Assembly: GCA_009602725.1 (NCBI GenBank)
Contig: WELB01000014.1
Span: 1,072,584-1,136,583, forward strand
Length of the DNA stretch: 64,000 nucleotides
Source of the DNA: Spirogloea muscicola
Taxonomy: Eukaryota > Streptophyta > Zygnematophyceae > Spirogloeales > Spirogloeaceae
Direction of reading: 5' to 3'
This document shows positions 1,211 through 37,574 of the stretch, piece after piece. Within the stretch, counting starts at the first letter, position 1, and each line of letters opens with the position of its first letter. Both the position numbers and the translations under genes were made by a program. Under the pieces are notes generated by a model that was not told where the DNA came from, did no database searches, and worked only from the letters and a program-made list of their open reading frames with translations.

Positions 1211-1659
1211 AAGAAAGTGATCGCCCATTGAGAATAGGGGCTGGAAAAGCCAGCCCAAAAAAGAATGAACAGAGTACGAGAAAGGGGCCAGGGGAAGCGC
1301 TAAGAAAAACAAGCACACAGAAAAACAAAGCAGCTACGCATCACTCAGTAACCCCTGCTAAGCAGCAGCAGGTCGGAGATGCTAGGCTCCTGGAAGTGGG
1401 TCCCCTGGCCAGAGCCAGAGGCAGCAGCGAGGGCTCTGCCGGCACGAAGGTGCAACGCCCGGGCCATAGACCTCTGCAGCGAGACGGCCAGGCGCATTCG
1501 ATACACTTGCGCCAGCGACCCGGCTGCAGGAAAGTCTACCGGCTCCCCATGGAAGCAACGGGCGATGGTGTTTACGAATCACTCAGAAACCTCTGCTAAG
1601 CAGCCACAGGTCGGAGATGCTAAAGCTAGCACACATGGAATCAAGCAGCTACGAAATAC
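1211..1659 (-). mobile_element. LINE subfamily A fragments, reverse orientation
   Basis: On the minus strand, the A tail (ending at 1211) is preceded by A coding sequence to about 1572, including the G-S-L-A-Q-V-Y-R-M-R-L-A-V region and the H-L-R-A-G-R-A-L block. A further small A fragment with the last codons (near 1573-1625) is fused to it, followed by unassigned sequence. Together with copies 1 and 2 this makes a tail-to-tail arrangement of A elements around 1130-1210. Confidence 0.7.
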
Positions 1660-2440
1660 TCAGTCACCCCTGCTAAGCAGCCGCAGGTCGGAGAAACTGG
1701 ACTCCTGGTAACGGGTCCCCTGGCCAGGGCCAGAGGCTGCAGCTAGGGCACGACCGGCACGCAGATGCAACGCACGAGCCATGGACCTCTGCAGCAAGAC
1801 AGACAAGCGTATGCTGTACACCTGCGCGAGCGAGCCTGCTGCATGGAAGTCCACCGGCTCGCCATGGAATCGGTGGGAGATGGTCTGCCGCGATAGCTGA
1901 TTGAGCAGCTCGAGCCACCGAGCGCCCAACGCGCCGTGGGTGTCGATGGCGAGTGGGAAGAACTCGTCGTCCCGCGGATGGTCAGCGTACTTCAAGTCCT
2001 TGGCCCGAGCGGCGCGGGCCACCGCATACCCAGCCGTGGAGGCACAATGTGCAGGGTGAGAGCCGTCGTAGGAGTCGGTGGTAACCACGTCTAGGATGAG
2101 ACGCAGCCCGACAGCTAGTGGGGTGGCCAAGAGGTCGACGCAACGGGCGGGAGACCGTCCGCCCGCTGCTGTAGCGGCATGACTGCGGAGTTCTCGGCGG
2201 CCACCGAGAAGCCGGCTTCCATGAGGATGCCATGCATGGCATCCCAGAGGAGGTCGTGCGCAGCTGTCCGGTCCCCACCGCGGGCACACCGCAGAACATG
2301 GTCGGCCAGCTCCGCAAGCTTGGCCCCCCCCCTCGCCGCATTCGCACTGACGCACTCCCTGGAGGCATGGCGGCGGGAGACCGAGAAGCCGGTGGATGGC
2401 ACTACGGAATGCCTCATCCGGGATGGTGAGGGCGTCGGTG
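1660..2440 (-). mobile_element. LINE subfamily A, C-terminal half with endonuclease region
   Basis: The longest A copy. On the minus strand it encodes a zinc-knuckle-like C-E-C-G...H-V-L-R-C segment and R-T-A-A-H-D (read in the frame seen at about 2417-2115), then C-V-D-L-L...L-D-V-V-T-T-D-S-Y and the C-terminal G-S-L-A-Q-V...S-D-L-R-L-L-S-R-G ending at a stop at 1660. The order CCHC, R..HD, D...DVV is that of the restriction-like endonuclease of R2-class LINEs (family knowledge). The halves lie in different frames, so the copy is a frameshifted relic. It is 5'-truncated at a P-D-E-A-F-R-S-A-I codon block near 2440. Confidence 0.75.
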
Positions 2441-2884
2441 AAGGGGAGGGCCCTCACCTTCCCGGACGAGGTATTCCGCAGTGCCATCCACTGGCTCCTG
2501 GGTCTGCCGCCGCTAAGCCTCCAAGGGTGTGCGTCAATGCGAATGTGGCGAGCGAGGGGCCGAGCCTGGGGAGCTGGCCGCCCACGTTCTGCGCTGTTCC
2601 CACGGCGGAGAGCGGACAACGGCACACGACCTCCTCCGGGATGCGATGCATGGCATCCTCGTGGAGGCTGGCTTCTCGGTGGCCGCCGAGAACTCCGCAG
2701 TCATGCGCTTCAGCAATGGGCGGGCGGTCTCCACGCCCGTCGCGTCGACCTTGTGGGCACCCCACCACCGGTGGGCCACGTCTTTTCCTTGACGTGGTAA
2801 CCACTGACCCCTATGACCGCACACACCCCGTACAGTGTGCCTCCAAGGCTGGGTATGCGGTAGCCTACGCCGCTCGGGCCAAGG
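2441..2884 (+). mobile_element. LINE subfamily A, second arm of a head-to-head pair
   Basis: Starting at the same P-D-E-V-F-R-S-A-I block as the opposite copy, this arm runs plus-strand through C-E-C-G...H-V-L-R-C, E-R-T-T-A-H-D, L-D-V-V-T-T-D and A-A-R-A-K-E. It stops abruptly at 2884, where subfamily C sequence begins. It mirrors the minus-strand copy and forms the right arm of an inverted repeat with a short spacer near 2441-2455. Several frames are used, so it is decayed. Confidence 0.7.
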
Positions 2885-3913
2885 AGGTCAATCGCGGTTT
2901 TCCCGTGCTGCAGACGAGCAACCACTGGAGCATCTCCGGAGTCTCCTCCAAGGGGATGCTCGAGGCCAGGCTCGGCTCCTATCTGTTTCGTCTCTGGGAG
3001 CGTCTGAGTGGCTCTGCGCTTTGCCTTTGCATGCGGGCTTGCGGATGGAAAATGCTTTGTTTTGCGATGCTATTTGCCGCCGCCTTGGCTTACCATCCCT
3101 GTGCTTGGCAGGGGTGACCCAATGTGAATGTGGGCTAATTGAGCATGATGGATTGCTCATGGGTGACCACATGCTCAGGTGTGCCAGAGGCAGTGAGCGC
3201 ACGAGCTCCCACAACCTCCTATGTGACGCCATGTATGGCATCGTCAAGGAGGCGGGATATCAAGTGGCGTTGGAGAGCACCGGGGTGATGCCCGTCCAAC
3301 TCCGCAACGGGGTCCCTCGGACGAGGCGTGTCGATCTGATAGGCGTCCCCCTGGGAGGTGGCAAGCGGCTCCTCATGGACTTCGTCCTGACCGACAGCTT
3401 CCGAATGAAGGGCCCCACTACTTCTGAGACCGGCTATGTTTTGAAGGTGGCCGAACAGAAGAAGTTGCACAAGTACAAGGACCACCCGGCGGGGGATAAC
3501 TTTTACCCCCTGACCATGGACATCCATGGGTGTTACGGGGGTCGGTGGTCCTCGTTACTTTCGCTGCTGGCCTCTCAAGCTGACCAGCGGCGCCGGGAAC
3601 AGGGTGCAGCCCTTTCTCTTCTTCCTGGTGGCTCGGTACCTTCGGGTCTTGTTTCCTGCCACCAAATGCGTTTATCTATTTGCCTACAGCGGTCCCAGGC
3701 TGATTGCTTTGCATCGCTGGGCTGGTCGCGCCCTTGCAGCAGCCTCTGGTTTGCGCAGCGCGGTTGCGCTTCTTCCCTCAGCTCATCTGGCTTCCTACTG
3801 CTGACACGGAGGTATTGAGGGCGCCCTGTCTGCCTAGCCTTTGGCTCCGTCATGAACACCTGTATGCATCTGGCTGGCAGTCTACAGCCGATTCTTTAAT
3901 ATCAGCAGCCGCA
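2885..3913 (+). mobile_element. LINE subfamily C, endonuclease domain and 3' end
   Basis: An open frame from the C junction at about 2886 to a stop at 3818 covers the C-terminal part of a LINE ORF2-like protein. In order: R-F-S-R-A-A-D-E-Q, a C-E-C-G-L-I...H-M-L-R-C knuckle (about 3124-3186), S-E-R-T-S-S-H-N, R-R-V-D-L-I-G-V...L-L-M-D-F-V-L-T-D (about 3318-3393), then K-Y-K-D-H-P and the C-terminal block. This fits an R2-type restriction-like endonuclease with H-N in place of H-D. Relative to the 37-kb copy there is a compensated shift near 3690-3780. The 3' tail ends about 3913 and carries a weak GGCTG...CAGCC hairpin near 3871. The RT part is missing (5' truncation). Confidence 0.8.
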
Positions 3914-4281
3914 TCCTTCTTGGAAATGGCAGAAGGTCCAGCCACCGACTGCCGAACGCCCCGTGCACATCCATCGCCAGCGACAACGATGACGAGTGCC
4001 GAAAGGCGCCAAAGCCACAGGCAAGCCACTCACCCATCGAGCTTCGCGGGGAGGCCCCATGGCCACGCCGTCAGCCGGAACCACTCACCGCGCCATGCGC
4101 CGCGCCAGGCGCCGTCGGGCGCGGCGCGCCTCCTGAGGCGGCGCCCCCCCCGCGGGCAGGCGGCGCAGCGGCTGGCGGTGCGGCGCGTCGGCGGGAGGCC
4201 GCGCTGGCGACGCGAAAAGGTGCAGCCGCCACCGCTTGTGGTGCGATTGTGGTGCAATTGTGAGGCCTCCGGGGCGCCGCG
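3914..4281 (+). promoter_or_regulatory. GC-rich upstream region of the kinase gene
   Basis: No gene is visible. From about 4080 the base composition rises sharply (runs of GCGCC and CGGCGG) up to the kinase start codon at 4282. I read it as promoter plus 5' untranslated region. No TATA box or other element can be singled out. Confidence 0.35.
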
Positions 4282-10241
<5,960 letters not shown>

Positions 10242-10738: not shown

Positions 10739-11245
10739 GAAGAAAGTGCTCGCCCATTGAGAATAGGGGCTGGAACAAACAGCCCGAAACAGAACAGAGT
10801 ACGAGAAGGGGGCCAGGGGAAGCGCTAAGTAACAAAAACAAAGCTGCTACGAGACACTCAGTAACCCCTGCTAAGCAGCCGCAGATCAGAGATGCTGGGC
10901 TCCTGGAAGTGGGTCCCCTGGCCAGAGCTAGAGGCAGCAGCGAGGGCTCTGCCGGCACGAAGGTGCAGCGCCCGGGCCATGGACCTTTGGAGCGAGACGG
11001 CCAGGCGCATTCGATACACTTGCGCCAGCGACCCGGCTGCAGGGAAGTCAACTGGCTCCCCATGGAAGCGCCGGGCGATGGTGTGGCGGGCGAGCTGGGT
11101 GAGCAGCTCGAGCCACCGAGCGCCCGGCGCCCCATGTGTGTCGATGGCCAACGGGAAGAACTCGTCTTCCCGCGGATGATCCGCGTACTTCAGCTCTTTG
11201 GCCCGAGCAGCGCAGGCGACCGCATACCCAGCCGTGGTGGCAAGT
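10739..11245 (-). mobile_element. LINE subfamily A, 3' part
   Basis: On the minus strand a continuous frame from about 11245 to a stop at 10858 encodes T-T-A-G-Y-A-V-A-C-A-A-R-A-K-E-L-K, E-F-F-P-L-A-I-D-T-H-G and the C-terminal block ending S-D-L-R-L-L-S-R-G-Y. The A tail follows with its GGGCTG-TTTGTTC-CAGCCC hairpin and ends at about 10739 in GAGCACTTTCTTC. The frame is uninterrupted, so this looks like a relatively young 5'-truncated insertion. Upstream of 11245 the frame runs into unrelated sequence, which marks the 5' truncation point. Confidence 0.8.
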
Positions 11246-11829
11246 GCCTTGACTTGCTGCTGCTTCTCCGCAGCAACGTGGACGACTGGCTGAACCGAAA
11301 GAAGCCGCTTGCAGTGAAAGGGAGGCCAACTTAAGCCAATACAATCTCCAGGCAAAGCGAGTGCAAAGAATGGGGCATACAGCAGTAGGGTAAGCCAGTG
11401 AATACGGCGTGGACGTGGCCAACCTTCAGTGACCAGTCTGGCTGTGGATTGGGTTGCACTGAGATGGCAGCTTCGCATTACACGAACTACGAAGCGAGAG
11501 GCTAAAGTACGTGGTACTTGATAGGCAGATGTGTCCTCGTCAGCACCCCGCCTGATGCCGTCGCAGAATTTGGGGCTTTCCCCAACGGAGTCGCTCATCT
11601 GGATGCCGACTACAGAGTTGCGCTTTCAAATTCAGAGGCTTGTGCTGCGGTTGCATTGGCGGCCCCATCAGCTGCACCAATGCCGTTGCTATCATAGGAC
11701 ATGAGGCCTATCGGTCACTCGCGCATACGCTTCCTGGCTGGTCCATCACCCAGCCCGGAAAAAGAGCAGCGACCAGGTCGGAGGCTTCATCAGCCGGCCT
11801 TGCACAGCCCTCCCCGGCCTTTGCATAAA
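11246..11829. other. Unassigned stretch between LINE insertions
   Basis: No gene or LINE block is recognised. A minus-strand reading frame of the adjacent element extends into it but shows no family similarity. A GCCAATACA-containing segment near 11331-11345 loosely resembles one near 39336-39352. Confidence 0.35.
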
Positions 11830-12048
11830 GAAGTGCTCGCCCATTGAGAATAGGGGCTGGAACAACCAGCCCGAAAAAGAATGAACAGAGTACGAGAAGG
11901 GGGCCAGGGGAAGCGCTAAGAAACAGAAACAAAGCAGCTACAAGACACTCAGTAACCCCTGCTAAGCAGCCGCAGATCAGAGATGCTGGGCTCCTGGAAG
12001 TGGGTCCCCTGGCCAGAGCCAGAGGCAGCAGCGAGGGCTCTGCCGGCA
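11830..12048 (-). mobile_element. LINE subfamily A 3' end, interrupted by another A tail
   Basis: Minus-strand A tail plus the last codons of the ORF up to the C-T-F-V-P-A-E-P region (H-L-R-A-G-R-A-L in the other frame). It breaks off at the GCCGGCACGAAG position, exactly where the next A tail begins. That suggests the neighbour inserted into this copy. Confidence 0.75.
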
Positions 12049-12145
12049 CGAAGAAAGTGCTCGCCCATTGAGAAAAGGGGCTGGAACAACCAGCCCGAAA
12101 AAGAATGAACAGAGTACGAGAAGGGGGCCAGGGGAAGCGCTAAGT
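12049..12145 (-). mobile_element. LINE subfamily A tail running into the assembly gap
   Basis: Minus-strand A tail with the hairpin GGGCTGG-TTGTT-CCAGCCC and the GAGCACTTTCTTC end. It is cut off at 12145 by an N and the giant T run. Its other end joins the preceding copy at a CTTC shared by tail and target. Confidence 0.75.
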
Positions 12146-16585
<4,440 letters not shown>

Positions 16586-17817
16586 TCGGCGGCGGCGGCG
16601 GCGAGGCGGCTGCCGCTGCTGCTGCCGCTGCTGGTGCCGCTGCTGGCGCTGGCAGCGGGCGGCGGCGGCGGCGCGGCGGCGCTGCGCTTCGACGTGAACG
16701 CGTACAGCAAGTGCGTGGGCGAGGAGATTGGCGACCGCACGCTGGTCGTCGGCGACTACCGCGTCGTCTCCGGCGACGCGCCGTCCAACAAGGTCTCCGT
16801 CACGGTGAGGCCTCAGGGTCTAGGGTTCAGGGTTCAGGGTTCAGGGTTCAGGGCCGCGTCGGCGCGCCGGCGGCGAGGGCTGGGGCGCGGAGGAGGACCG
16901 CTGGCAGTCCCCGGGGAGCCGGCTGGCCCTGACGCGCTGACGCGGCGATGACGCGGCGATGACGCTGACGCGCCGGCCTCGCCGCCGCCGCCGCCGCCGC
17001 GGGCGCAGGTGACATCGCCGTACGGGTCGCAGCTGCACTACCAGGACCACGTGGAGAGCGGGCAGTTTGGGTTCACGACCAAGGAGTCGGGGCAGTTCAT
17101 GGCGTGCTTCTGGGTGCCCGGCGCCACGCCCAACGTGCACAACGTGCAGCTGGAGCTGGACTGGAAGACGGGCGTCGCCGCCCAGGACTGGAACCAGATC
17201 GCCAAGAAGGACCGCCTTGACGTGGGTCCCCTCCGCCGCCGCCGCAGCTGCCGCGGCTGTCGTTGCCGTCACTGCGCCCAGGTCGGGTTGAGGCGCTGAG
17301 CTAAGAGGCTCCCATTGCCGGGGTGTTGCAGAGCATGGGCCTGGAGCTGCGGAAGCTGGACGATGCGCTCGAGCAGATCCGCAAGGAGATGAGCTACTTT
17401 CGCACCAGGTGCACGCCCTGTGGCCTCCCCATATCAGAAGGACAATGCATGTTGCGCGGTTGTCCAGTCAAAGGCACATTCTCGTGTAAGCCGCAGCATT
17501 GGCCTGCATTCAGGGCCAATTCATGCCAGCTGCGTATGGCGGCATGCTCCGTTCCAGGGATCATGAACCCAGGGATTCCAAGCTGCTGGGCCTGTGCTTG
17601 CCAGAAAGTCCTGGTCTGCAGGTATCGCTCGGTGCTTGCCTGATGATGTTGCGACGGCGGTGGCAATTGCAGGGAGGAGGAGATGCGCAAGGTGCAGGAG
17701 CGCACCAACGGCCGTGTCGGATGGTTCAGCCTGCTCTCGCTTCTCGTCTGCATTGGCCTTGCAGCGCTGCAGCTCTGGCATCTCAAGTCCTTCTTCGAGC
17801 GCAAGAAACTGCTCTGA
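16586..17817 (+). CDS. p24/emp24/GP25L cargo receptor (5' end missing in gap)
   Basis: Type I membrane protein cycling between ER and Golgi in COPII/COPI vesicles. Four exons: 16586-16804, 17009-17221, 17332-17408 and 17673-17817 (stop 17815-17817). The first exon starts in the N gap, in frame with an alanine run and the hydrophobic leader R-R-L-P-L-L-L-P-L-L-V-P-L-L-A-L, a signal peptide. The GOLD domain follows with L-R-F-D-V, a K-C-V-G-E-E segment and a second cysteine in F-M-A-C-F-W. Then come a coiled-coil helix (L-E-L-R-K-L-D-D-A-L-E-Q-I) and one membrane segment (W-F-S-L-L-S-L-L-V-C-I-G-L). The short tail is F-F-E-R-K-K-L-L, fitting the aromatic and dilysine-type COPI/COPII signals of p24 tails. 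Length is normal for the family apart from the missing start. Confidence 0.92.
16816..16853 (+). repeat. Interstitial telomere-like TTCAGGG repeat in p24 intron 1
   Basis: About four consecutive GGGTTCA units preceded by a GGGTCTA variant, inside the first p24 intron. The unit is one base from the plant-type TTTAGGG telomere repeat. The same unit recurs at 32917-32945. Confidence 0.85.
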
Positions 17818-32639: not shown

Positions 32640-33401
32640 CTGCACGCGTCAATCACAGCCGCAGCAAGCTGTTGGAAGGTATGCCTGAGGACATTGTGCT
32701 TAAACTAATTGCCAGAAATTTCAGGAAAGATAGGTGCATTTATATTGGAATTGCTAGAGACAGTAGCACTAGGAAATCCATCGGTATTGCCAAATGCGTT
32801 GGCAATAGAATCAATCGGAACACACATAAGATAAGAAGAGAATAAAAAGTTAATCGATGCAGATAAGCAAGGGGAAAGGATGCCAGCCGCAAATGCTAGC
32901 CATCATAGAGGCCCCCAGGGTTCAGGGTTCAGGGTTCAGGGTTCAAGGGCGAGGGTTTTAGGTTTAAGCATCAGGGTGGGTTGAGGGGTCGGGGGTAGGG
33001 TTTGGATGTTCTCAGCATTGCATCGGCGGCCAGAAGGACTTGGAATGCACGCTGAGAGGTCAAGTCAAAACACAGCAAGTCGCGGCATCTCGGGTGCCGG
33101 AATCGAACCCCGGCGTCAGAAGCTGGCGGCGGCGATGGAGCTGCGGCGCCGCCGACGTCCTCCTCGCCGCGCAGCGCCAAGCCGGCCGGGCCTGCGAGGG
33201 ACTCCTCTCCACGACCGCCCCCACCAGGGACGGCGCCGCCGACGGCTCGTGAGGCTGGCGCGGGCACCGCGCCGCGGTCGCGGCCGCAGATTCCGGCGGC
33301 GGCGGCGGCGGCGGCGGCATGGCCTGGGAGAGCGGTCCCGGGTTCGACCGCTCCGGTAGACCTGGACCCGGCTATCTTCCGTCGGGCGATTGTGAGTAGC
33401 C
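32640..33401. other. Upstream region of the GTPase gene
   Basis: Contains a telomere-like patch (32917-33003) and, from 33110, a GC-rich segment with a (CGG)n run at about 33291-33318. This is the composition seen at other gene starts in the window. It may hold the missing first exon and promoter of the minus-strand GTPase. Confidence 0.4.
32917..33003 (+). repeat. Interstitial telomere-like repeats
   Basis: Four GGGTTCA units (32917-32945) followed by degenerate GGGTTTTA, GGTTTAA and GGGTAGGG variants. The unit matches the patch in p24 intron 1. Isolated GGTTTA/CCCTAAA words also occur at 32036-32080 and 32443-32460. Confidence 0.8.
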
Positions 33402-33454
33402 GCCAGAAAGTGCGGCCAGATTGACTGGTGGCTGGGACAGGCCAGCCCAAAGAG
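33402..33454 (-). mobile_element. LINE subfamily B tail end, about 50 bases
   Basis: Minus-strand GGGCTGGCCTGTCCCAGCC hairpin plus the CCACCAGTCAATCTGGCCGC end of the B tail. Only the last 50 bases of the element are present, interrupted by the A copy that follows. Confidence 0.7.
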
Positions 33455-33650
33455 AGGAGAAGAAAGTGCTCGCCCATTGAGAATAGGGGCTGGAACAACC
33501 AGCCCGAAAAAGAATGAACAGAGTACGAGAAGGGGGCCAGGGGAAGCGCTAAGTAACAGAAACAAAGCTGCTACGAGACACTCAGTAATCCCTGCTAAGC
33601 AGCCGCAGATCAGAGATGCTGGGCTCCTGGAAGTGGGTCCCCTGGCCAAG
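33455..33650 (-). mobile_element. LINE subfamily A 3' end
   Basis: Minus-strand A tail ending GAGCACTTTCTTC at about 33458, plus the last A codons (S-I-S-D-L-R-L-L-S-R). It breaks at CCCCTGGCC at 33648, where a B tail begins. Compared with uninterrupted A copies the junction is at GCTCTGGCCAGGG. Confidence 0.8.
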
Positions 33651-33889
33651 AGAGGAAGCGCGGCCAGATTGACTGGTGGCTGGGAAAGGCCAGCCCAAAA
33701 GAATGGACAAAGTCTGAGGGAGCCTGAGTGCGAACGACTAGGACTAAGACATCTGCCAGGGAACGCTCAGTAACCTCTAGACAGGAGATGCAGGTCCGAG
33801 AAGCTAGCTGGCCCAAAGGAGTGGACAAGGTCTGAAGGCGCTGGAGTGCGAAGGACTAGGACCAAGACATCAGCCAGGGAACGCTCAGT
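33651..33889 (-). mobile_element. LINE subfamily B 3' ends, two stacked
   Basis: A first minus-strand B tail with hairpin GGGCTGGCCTTTCCCAGCC reaches the last B codons (S-F-S-D-L-H-L-L-S-R) near 33805. A second, diverged B tail piece then repeats the TCGCACTCCAG...CTGAGCGTTCCCTGGC block to about 33889. Both are truncated insertions. Confidence 0.7.
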
Positions 33890-34240
33890 AACAACGCTCA
33901 GCTGCAAGGCAGTCGCCGGGGGTCCATCGATCGCGCATGCTCGTTGAGCACTCGCGGGAGCTGTGTGGGGAGGACGACTCGGAGGATTTCGGTTTGCTGC
34001 TTCGGGTCGCGCAACATGTTGCGCGTGGACACCTCACCCGTCGTGTAGGCGCAGTCCTCCGCACAAGCAATCTCATTGCTTTGCAATCAGACTTGCATCT
34101 CCTGACCAGAGGTTCCTGAGCGTTCCCTGGCTGATGTCTTAGTCCTACTCCCACTCGCACTCCGGCTCCTTCAGACCTTGTCCATTCCTTTGGGCTGGCT
34201 TTTCCCAGCCACCAGTCAATTTGGCCGCGCTTTCTTTCTT
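33890..34240 (+). mobile_element. LINE subfamily B-like 3' end, plus strand
   Basis: Coding remnant with a D-L-H-L-L-T-R-G-S ending (stop near 34119), then a B tail with hairpin GGGCTGGCTTTTCCCAGCC and the end GGCCGCGCTTTCTTTCTTT. It opposes the minus-strand B copies to its left. The tail abuts the RT fragment of subfamily C at about 34241. Confidence 0.7.
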
Positions 34241-36187
34241 TGCAGAAGGACAGCGGGGGAGTGCGTCCTATCTCGATGGGGAAGGTTTTGTCGCGCCTCG
34301 TGGGGCGCACCCTAATCATGCAGATCCAGGACGATGCCCAAGCGCACTTCCATCCCCACCAGTTTGGGGCTGGATGCGTGCTGGCGCTGAGACCCTGGTC
34401 CACGGGGTACGAGCGGCACTGGATGTCAACCCCCATTGGCTGGCCTTGAGCGTGGACGTACAGAACGCCTTCAACTCCGTGGATCGGCAGGTTATTACCG
34501 AGGAGCTAAGGCAGTACTTTCCCACCCTCCTCCCTCACTGCCGCTGCATGTATGGCTCGCCATCTGCATTGTTGTGGGGGGCAGGGACTTCTTTGGCTGT
34601 TCTGCAGTCAAAGACGGGGACACGCCAAGGTGATCCACTGGGTGATTTCCTCTTCGCTCTGGCGCATCACCCGTGCTTTGCGCAACACAGCGAGCGCTCA
34701 CCGTGGCGTTCTCCTCCCGAGCTATGCGCATGATACCATGCTCCTCGGCCCCCCCAGAGGAGGTGCTGCGAGCTTTCGGCACTCTTCAGCACCAGCTCCA
34801 ACTTATTGGGCTTGGGGTCAATCCGGCTGAGTGCTCTGCCTGGTCCCCCATTGGCATCCCTCTTTCCCTCTTCCCCTCGTTGCCGACATCTTGTCAGACT
34901 CCAGAGGGCTGCTTGAGGATCTTGGGAGTGCCACTAGGGGACCCGTCTTTCTCGGAGGGTGCTGTCCTTGCTCGTCTCCAAGGATACATGCAGGTCCTGC
35001 CAGAGCTCCCCAGCCTTGGGGACTCTCAGTTGGCAGTGGCCATTTTGACCAGGAGTGTGGCACAGCGGCCGTGCTACCTCCTGCGTACGGTCCCACCGTC
35101 GGTCAGCTTGGATGCTATCTATGCATCCATTGATGTCAAGCTTCAGCAATGCCTTGCTGATCTGATTGCTCACCCACTCCTAGAGCAGTCTCCAGCAGCA
35201 CTGGTGCAATATACGCTGCCCATACGCCACGTTGGGCTTGGTTGTCGCCCCTTGGTCCGCTTATGCAGACCAGCGTACCTTGGCTGCTGGGCTCGAGTGG
35301 CTTCGTCTATATCTGGACGATTCCTCCTTGAGCGACAACGTGTATTGGCGCCTCACATCAGTAACGTGATTCAGGGGAGTCTGCCTTTCCCAGTGACTCT
35401 CAAAGCATGCCAACAGGACCTCTTCGCCGCATACCGCCTCTGGTGAATGAGCCTGTTAGTTTTGCTGCCTGGGCTGACGTTTCTGATGTTAAGGCTCAAT
35501 CGCGGTTTTCCCGTGCTGCAGACGAGCAACCACTGGAGCATCTCCGGAGTCTCCTCCAAGGGGATGCTCGAGGCCAGGCTCGGCTCCTATCTGTTTCGTC
35601 TCTGGGAGCGTCTGAGTGGCTCCGCGCTTTGCCTTTGCATGCGGGCTTGCAGATGGAAAATGCTTTGCTTTGCGATGCTATGCGCCGCCGCCTTGGCTTA
35701 CCATCCCTGTGCTTGGCAGGGGTGACCCAATGTGAATGTGGGCTTATTGAGCATGATGCATTTCTCATAGATGACCACATGCTCAGGTGTGCCAGAGGAA
35801 GTGAGCGCACGGGCTCCCACAATCTCCTACGTGACGCCATGTATGGCATCGTCAAGGAGGCATGATATCAAGTGGCGTTGGAGAGCACCGGGGTGATGCC
35901 CGTCCAACTCCGCAACGGGGTCCCTCGGACGACGCGTGTCGATCTGGTTGGCGTCCCCCGGGAGGTGGCAAGCGGCTCCTCATGGACGTCGTCCTAACCG
36001 ACAGCTTCCGGACGAAGGGCCCCATTACTTCTGAGACCGGCTATGCCGTGAAGGTGGCCAAACCGAAGAAGTTTGAGCAAGTACAAGTACCACCCGGCGT
36101 GTGATTATTCAATGCCCTGGCCATGGACATCCATGGGTGTTACGGGGGTCGGTGGTCCTCGTCAACTTCTGCTGCTGGCCTCTCAAG

Positions 36188-36966
36188 CAGGTGCATTGGT
36201 GGAGGCGGGCTACGCAGTCGGCCAAGCTGTGGGCGAGAAGGAACGGAAGTACTCGGACCACCCGGTGGGCGACGAGTTCGTTCCATTGGCAGTGGACGTG
36301 CATGGAGCCTTTGGCTCCAAATGAAGAAGGTGCTCGCCCATTGAGAAGAGGGGCTGGCAAAGCCAACCCAAAAAGAATGGACAATGTTCAAAGCCAAAGA
36401 AAGAGGTGCTGAAAAAGGACTACACTACAAAGTGCAAGATGGTGCAGAGGGAGATGCAGATGGCTGCTCAGTATCCACGTGTGAGCAACAGCAGATCAGA
36501 GTAACTCGGAGCAGGAGAAGCGGCACTTTGCCGAGACCCGGAAGCAGCAGCCATAGCACGGCCAGCCCGCGCGTGGACAAATGGCTTGACTTGCTCCACC
36601 GCCTGGCGCGGCGTGCAGCGGCCCGCCGCCTCGGGCAGCAGGGCGAGCAGCCCGGCTTCAACATAGCCGGGTCCCTCGCTCAGGTTTCCCGTTTGCGTTT
36701 GGCTGTCTCGATGCAGCGGTCCCTCGCCTTCGCGGTTCACTTGCGCGCAGGCCGAGCTTTGGCGGCGGCCTCCGGCTTCCGTCGGGGCGACGTCTTTCCG
36801 CTAGCTAGCTTCTCGGACCTGCATCTCCTGTCTAGAGGTTACTGAGCGTTCCCTGGCTGATGTCTTAGTCCTAGTCGTTCGCACTCAGGCTCCCTCAGAC
36901 ATTGTCCATTCTTTTGGGCTGGCCTTTCCCAGCCACCAGTCAATCTGGCCGCGCTTCCTCTCGCAA
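36188..36966 (+). mobile_element. LINE subfamily B inserted into subfamily C
   Basis: It enters C between L-L-A-S-Q-A and Q-R-R-R-E-Q-G, which are contiguous at 3565-3605 in the other C copy. It starts with A-G-Y-A-V-G-Q-A-V-G-E-K, is itself interrupted at 36322-36574, resumes at V-D-K-W-L-D-L-L and ends S-F-S-D-L-H-L-L-S-R-G-Y (stop 36843-36845). The B tail carries hairpin GGGCTGGCCTTTCCCAGCC at 36917-36935. CAAGC flanks both ends (36183-36187, 36965-36970), a likely short target duplication. Confidence 0.8.
36322..36574 (-). mobile_element. LINE subfamily F inserted into the nested B element
   Basis: Minus strand: A-R-A-G-R-A-M-A-A-A-S-G-S-R, then S-Y-S-D-L-L-L-L-T-R-G-Y and a stop at 36468. 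The tail has hairpin GGGTTGGCTTTGCCAGCCC and the end GAGCACCTTCTTC. Its C-terminal codons differ from A, B and C, so it is a separate subfamily. It splits B between H-G-A-F-G-S-K and V-D-K-W. Confidence 0.75.
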
Positions 36967-37009
36967 GCTGTCCAGCGGCGCCACGAACAGAGTGCAGCCC
37001 TTCTTCATC

Positions 37010-37116
37010 TTAGCGCTTCCCCTGGCCCCCTTCTCGTACTCTGTTCATTCTTTTTCGGGCTGGTCGTTCCAACCCCTATTCTCAATGGGCGAGCACTTTC
37101 TTCTTCTTCTTCTTCC
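37010..37116 (+). mobile_element. LINE subfamily A tail inserted into subfamily C
   Basis: Only the last ~95 bases of A are present: pyrimidine leader, hairpin GGGCTGG-TCGTT-CCAACCC and CAATGGGCGAGCAC followed by TTTC(TTC)n. The empty site is visible at 3605-3628 in the other C copy (GCAGCCCTTTCTCTTCTTCCTGG). The filled site reads GCAGCCCTTCTTCATCTTAG...(TTC)nCCGG. Confidence 0.85.
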
Positions 37117-37574
37117 CGGTGGCTCTGTGCCTTTGGGTCTTGTTTCCTGCTACCGAATGCGTTCATCGATGTGCCTACAGCAGTCCCAGGCGATTGCTTT
37201 GCGTCGCCGGGCTGGCGCCCTTGCAGCAGCCTCTGGTTTGCGCAGCGGGGTTGCTCTTCCTCCCCTCAGCTCATCTGGCTTCCTGCTGCTGACACGGGGT
37301 ATTGAGGGCGCCCTGTCCGCCTAGCCTTTGGCTCCGTCATGAACACCTATATGCATCTGGCTTGCAGTTCACAGCCGATTCTTAAATATCAGCAGCCGCA
37401 TTCATTTCTCCTTGGCTGCAGCTCCGTCGGAAGTGGCGAGTTTTTCCCCCGAGGCACCGAGGAGCTCGCGCTCGTGTGCGGCGCGGCGCATTTGGCGCCG
37501 CAGTCTCCGCCGTGCATACCGGCGGCGGCGGCGGAGGCGGCGGCGGCGGCGGCGGCGGTGGCCGGCGGCCACGG

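Follow-up and report, generated by a model that had tools for sequence, protein, structure and literature searches.

A decayed, repeatedly interrupted LINE copy, very probably of an APE-less family with an R2-like nuclease, in a putatively streptophyte-like genome

The window analysed here (the whole stretch of DNA, 64,000 nucleotides) carries at 33353-37403 a decayed LINE copy that is split by four nested inserts. We regard it as very probably a dead member of an APE-less LINE family which encodes a single protein, composed of zinc finger(s), a reverse transcriptase (RT), a knuckle, a PD-(D/E)XK-like restriction-like endonuclease (RLE) and a constrained C-terminal module, and which would move by target-primed reverse transcription with no fixed site. 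The lineage is best read as a non-site-specific, recently active RLE-LINE. Its mechanism is ordinary for RLE LINEs; what is unusual is the host and the abundance, together with the C-terminal module and the measured differences from R2.

Structure of the copy in the window

DNA comparison with an intact relative (L069, on G000:C81) resolves the copy into five pieces, hereafter the host copy, separated by the four inserts:

33353..33406, + strand: 5'-most recognisable piece of the host copy, L069:3429-3482 at 93% (blastn; also tblastn), from about residue 508 of L069; insert 1 follows
33407..33899, - strand: insert 1, a composite of 3' tails of other LINE subfamilies, with an imperfect target repeat of about 9 bp
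33900..34085, + strand: host copy, start of the RT region, L069:3474-3658 at 88% (blastn)
34086..34234, + strand: insert 2, a 149-bp 3' tail of another subfamily with a GGCTGG..CCAGCC hairpin word and the end CGCTTTC; target repeat of about 10 bp
34235..36188, + strand: host copy, RT, thumb, CCHC knuckle and part of the RLE, L069:3649-5602 at 95% (blastn), with frameshifts and stops
36189..36960, + strand: insert 3, a 5'-truncated copy of a further subfamily, with the end of an RLE (36202-36321) and a C-terminal module (36651-36842); imperfect target repeat of about 8 bp
36961..37003, + strand: host copy continues, L069:5595-5637
37004..37111, + strand: insert 4, a 108-bp 3' tail of the L072 subfamily with the end CACTTTC(TTC)n; target repeat of at most 4 bp
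37112..37403, + strand: the host copy's own C-terminal module (37112-37300) and 3' UTR with the end ATATCAGCAGCCGC, L069:5634-5924 at 87% (blastn)

The first-pass annotation had placed a LINE at 34241-37401; the match is real, but its start lies further upstream, at 33353, and the four inserts interrupt it. DNA identity to L069 is highest in the main block and 87-93% in the smaller pieces, and the match is not a chance one. The motifs NAFN and RQGDP share one reading frame (34374-34670, 94% amino acid identity to L069), with YAHD where YADD would be expected, and are followed by the thumb (34748-35434) and by the knuckle and the first part of the RLE (35434-36189), so that RT motifs followed by knuckle and nuclease, as originally read, are borne out by these frames and by the match to L069. 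The copy is dead, because frameshifts and stops lie within it.

At the junctions, L069 positions 3474-3482, 3649-3658, 5595-5602 and 5634-5637 are found on both sides of inserts 1 to 4, respectively (9, 10, 8 and 4 bp); the repeats at inserts 1 and 3 are imperfect, and the 4-bp repeat could be chance. Part of insert 1 (33461-33581) is an L072 tail, identical over 121 bp, and a reversed tail near 36323-36383 sits inside insert 3. A seven-piece alignment of the window fragments was discarded, as its pieces were misplaced.

Intact relatives and domain organisation

Searching the genome with the thumb region gave at least 146 matches (144 of 1,967 candidates scored), about 50 of which lie in stop-free frames of at least 1,100 residues, some extending far past the element; the nuclease region gave at least 129 (121 of 11,407 candidates scored). 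Full-length relatives are thus present in the same assembly, and we read and aligned four intact frames. They align throughout, with identities to L069 of 95% (L070), 53% (L071) and 47% (L072). The several subfamilies proposed in the first-pass annotation are supported.

All four frames follow the same plan: one or more N-terminal zinc fingers precede the RT, and after it come the CCHC knuckle, the RLE and, over the last 100 residues or so, a C-terminal module. The R2-like order of RT, knuckle and nuclease is thus common to them. The finger has the form CxxC-x12-H-x3-C (two in L072), the RT carries NAFN, RQGDP and Y/FADD, and a CX1CX12HX3C knuckle stands between RT and RLE. The nuclease motifs R-x3-H-N/D, A-x-E, R-V/L-D, D-V-V and K-x3-Y recur in every frame, as does the C-terminal end SD-x3-L-T/S-RGY. 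Pfam searches at E≤1 found RVT_1 in all four and otherwise just sub-threshold zinc-finger matches; neither an APE nor an RNase H family was found in any of the four at that threshold. No APE domain thus lies upstream of the RT in these full-length relatives, and the description of the family as APE-less stands.

Genome-wide profile searches, whose sensitivity for eukaryotic LINEs is uncalibrated, gave 10 matches to Exo_endo_phos (all above the cut-off, the strongest at 39 bits, in frames between 104 and 552 residues long, by scores only), none to Exo_endo_phos_2, and no APE match within any frame of LINE length. The best RVT_1 match in the genome, L001 (L002-L006 score equal), lies in a frame that reads as a Gypsy-type LTR retrotransposon; the top RT matches are therefore not LINEs.

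Relationship to R2 and the predicted nuclease

When a profile of the four sequences was compared with the PDB, R2 chains scored best (E = 7.2e-12, 1.1e-11 and 1.3e-8), followed by 8c8j, named RNA-directed DNA polymerase (E = 2.9e-4), and by L1 ORF2 chains, which matched over the RT portion only (E = 5.6e-4 at best). R2 and L1 are the only LINEs among these matches, and the RT is closest to R2-type elements within that two-way comparison. The N-terminal finger aligns with the R2 finger at 4-5 bits, which alone is not significant.

One-way searches of the PDB with the RLE alone found no R2 chain, and R2 nuclease sequences were therefore compared separately. The family RLE and the RLE of R2 chains align in hhalign with a score of 27.8 (P 0.0012, 87 columns, hhalign probability 19%), which none of 100 column-shuffled R2 profiles reached (maximum 18.3). 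The register places D1150, D1165, K1193 and Y1197 of L069 on D996, D1009, K1026 and Y1030 of 8gh6, which we take to be silkworm R2. This favours a match of the predicted RLE to R2 nucleases and points, as a profile-level match only, to a C-terminal endonuclease of the PD-(D/E)XK type with the lysine far from the aspartate pair. A catalytic lysine distant from the aspartates is known in LINE RLEs (PMC5678591; here and below, PMC numbers refer to excerpts of the papers concerned). An AlphaFold model of two aligned C-terminal stretches from the window had a mean pLDDT of 32 (from a two-sequence alignment).

Like R2 (PDB 8gh6, 9dou, 9nl2, 9nl3), the present family combines an N-terminal zinc finger, RT, knuckle and RLE in one protein and has the catalytic D, D, K and Y of the RLE in register. 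It differs in that K-P-D of R2 is replaced by R-V/L-D and R-H by S/A-H, in that varied flanks take the place of a fixed 28S-type target, and in that the R2 tail is not alignable with the C-terminal module. Its CX1CX12HX3C knuckle also departs from the spacing published for LINEs, CX2-3CX7-8HX4C (excerpt of PMC5678591).

The C-terminal module and selective constraint

A C-terminal extension had been described beyond the nuclease, but the stretch quoted for it (36345-36845, with the module at 36651-36842) was read from insert 3, a nested foreign fragment, and the host copy's own module lies at 37112-37300. Each of the four intact frames nevertheless carries such a module. Comparison of L069 with L070 shows it to be constrained, with 13 synonymous and 0 nonsynonymous changes over residues 1206-1307, and its similarity to the R2 tail does not exceed chance (score 7.5, a value reached in 181 of 200 shuffles). 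Tails of this kind are also seen in unnamed animal and algal RT proteins.

Over the whole frame, dN/dS between L069 and L070 is 0.22, with values of 0.16 in the RT, 0.17 in the thumb, 0.14 in the knuckle and RLE and 0.34 between finger and RT. The N-terminal 265 residues are weakly constrained (0.76).

Insertion, spread and age

All 28 3' ends compared reach the family end CAGCAGCCG and are followed by varied DNA; none of the 28 carries poly-A, and the next letters are often TTTCTC or TTTCTT. At 19 of 20 cut 5' ends (L079 being the exception) we find CAACGGCTCCC after variable flanks. Across 11 pairs of 5' and 3' flanks, the shared words sum to 76 (mean 6.9, against 4.8 in 319 mismatched pairs), a sum reached in 0 of 20,000 re-pairings, in a test that, with its window sizes, was set after a first look at the pairs. 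Words of at least 8 bp are shared by four of the 11 true pairs, as opposed to seven of the 319 mismatched ones, and these four are clear target duplications (8 bp in L089/L052, 10 bp in L090/L066, 14 bp in L091/L063 and 8 bp in L092/L056); the other seven pairs share words of 3-6 bp only.

The last 30 bases of the 5' flanks are 72% pyrimidine, compared with 52% further out, although the element's own C-run may account for part of this; the 3' flanks are 60% pyrimidine, compared with 55%. L094, whose flank is too short, was left out of the flank test, and L095, for which no 3' end was found, out of both the duplication and the flank tests. In 13 of 29 copies, family sequence follows downstream within about 265 bp, compared with 77 of 400 random window pieces; nesting therefore looks preferred, against a background drawn from one LINE-rich window. 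By eye, L095 (G000:C50:772150-772650) is a truncated copy that has inserted, at a pyrimidine run, into the part of a near-identical copy that encodes the C-terminus.

Matches fall on many contigs, and the 28 3' flanks vary, as opposed to three places found in a 5.8S rRNA search, one of them under the cut-off; a fixed single 28S rDNA target does not fit this distribution, and the family is indeed dispersed, and apparently not confined to rDNA, as first proposed. A short family match at C30:41286 is about 10 kb away from one of the 5.8S places. Near-identical copies are frequent: in 27 of 30 loci from the thumb-region search (the window copy L009, L028 and L036 being left out), nine copies are identical over 687 bp, and of the 42 matches listed for a 121-bp L072-subfamily tail, 40 are identical (40 of 1,074 candidates scored). 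RNA folding of the 3' tails gave z-scores of -3.2 for L072, -2.0 for L071, +0.1 for L069 and +0.9 for L070; given the last two, a stable 3' structure is not general in the family.

On the preferred reading, the probable partner of the N-terminal CCHC-type zinc finger(s) is target DNA or the element RNA, and the C-terminal module may have a role as well. The RLE would nick one strand, the free 3' end would prime reverse transcription from the 3' end of the element RNA (a short UTR with no poly-A), and a second cut, offset by about 8-14 bp, would yield target-site duplications and many 5'-truncated copies. Targeting would proceed without a single fixed site, and existing LINE copies would be hit often.

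Affiliation, host and significance

Among LINEs, the RLE type is regarded as the older one, and most descriptions of it are of site-specific elements (PMC4640811); the hosts named for RLE LINEs in the excerpts used are animals, some protists and oomycetes (including PMC4640811 and PMC5678591). We consider it an evenly balanced question whether the family is simply a member of an existing, widespread RLE-LINE group (HERO-like, NeSL-like or an unnamed animal or algal one) newly noted in such a host. In favour of this, unnamed coral, fish, haptophyte and dinoflagellate proteins contain comparable RT, nuclease and C-terminal strings. Numerous RLE LINEs without target specificity fall in HERO (PMC4640811), and the cockroach BLAG elements are R2-like and not site-specific (PMC7650587); both resemble the present family in being APE-less RLE LINEs not bound to one gene, but the hosts named for them in these excerpts are animals, whereas the present host belongs to the green lineage. 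Against it stands that no relative was found in viral contigs or prokaryote genomes, collections that could hardly be expected to contain one.

Descent from Dualen/RandI by loss of the APE is improbable. These elements share with the present family an RLE (PMC4640811) and an occurrence in green algae, having been reported in all core-Reinhardtinia of one study (PMC8226300), but they encode an APE as well (PMC4640811). APE and RLE in one protein, which would mark a Dualen/RandI element, are not seen in the four intact frames, which contain neither an APE nor an RNase H family at E≤1, and the N-terminal finger sits where R2 has its own, albeit with the weak match of 4-5 bits. Zepp of Coccomyxa likewise inserts into existing copies of itself, mostly as 5'-truncated 3' ends, but is treated as L1-type and clusters at one place per chromosome (PMC8226300), in contrast to the R2-like present family on its many contigs. 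That the motif order arose by chance in GC-rich sequence and that the locus is no LINE might be argued from the broken and interrupted window copy by itself, but we dismiss it as having next to no probability, given the abundance of thumb and nuclease matches, the long stop-free frames and the purifying selection; the intact copies rule it out.

The host is judged from a single gene. For one LHCII gene, the top match is a multi-domain light-harvesting protein, and land-plant LHCII chains, the leading ones presumably from moss and spruce, are best among single-domain chains. This match supports, on one gene, the green, streptophyte-like host originally proposed. The LINEs usually described in land plants are L1 and RTE. 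Among the matches listed from the open-access literature, no title or abstract names an RLE-only LINE in a streptophyte, which is weak evidence of absence.

Only tentatively do we propose the wider picture of a streptophyte genome in which the LINE load consists almost entirely of RLE-type elements. These would form a lineage without APE or site specificity, marked by a knuckle spacing of its own and a constrained C-terminal module, by a preference for its own relatives and for DNA rich in pyrimidines, and by a hairpin word and a CTTTC-like tail common to the ends of several subfamilies. If this is true, LINEs of the old type would be present in the lineage that led to land plants. The range of RLE LINEs would be widened by a green-lineage genome in which such elements are abundant, dispersed and recently active, and their natural proteins would help in studying how RLE LINEs manage without strict target choice, a matter that bears on R2-based gene-insertion tools. 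Because the intact copies differ little from one subfamily to the next, what the knuckle and the C-terminal module do can be tested directly.

Other family fragments in the window

Further pieces of the family lie towards the start of the window:

1643..2452, - strand: L072-type RLE and C-terminal module, about 81% to L072, inverted relative to the next fragment
2450..2886, + strand: L072-type RLE fragment, 83% to L072:4626-5063
2888..3920, + strand: second fragment of the same subfamily as the window copy, with knuckle, RLE, degraded C-terminal module and 3' UTR, 92% to L069
10739..11544, - strand: L072-type C-terminal fragment and tail, 97-98% over 10739-11242, full span by blastn/tblastn

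The same domain order had been claimed for 1660-2884 and 2885-3818. A nuclease region is indeed present in the latter, within the fragment at 2888-3920, held in a 333-residue open frame (2817-3818), but the former consists of the two inverted fragments of a more distant subfamily.

The word GGCTGG-N1-9-CCAGCC was counted 12 times in the window, where 0.07 would be expected, and is found in several tails. At 935-1255, 11736-12095, 33430-33695, 34193-34210 and 36917-36934 it sits for the most part in the 3' tails of various LINE subfamilies, which end near CTTTC. The stretch 12144-16697 is about 4.5 kb of nearly pure T between N, probably an assembly artefact, and beside the LINE cluster, at 4458-7400, open frames resemble, by eye, exons of a STE20-type protein kinase.
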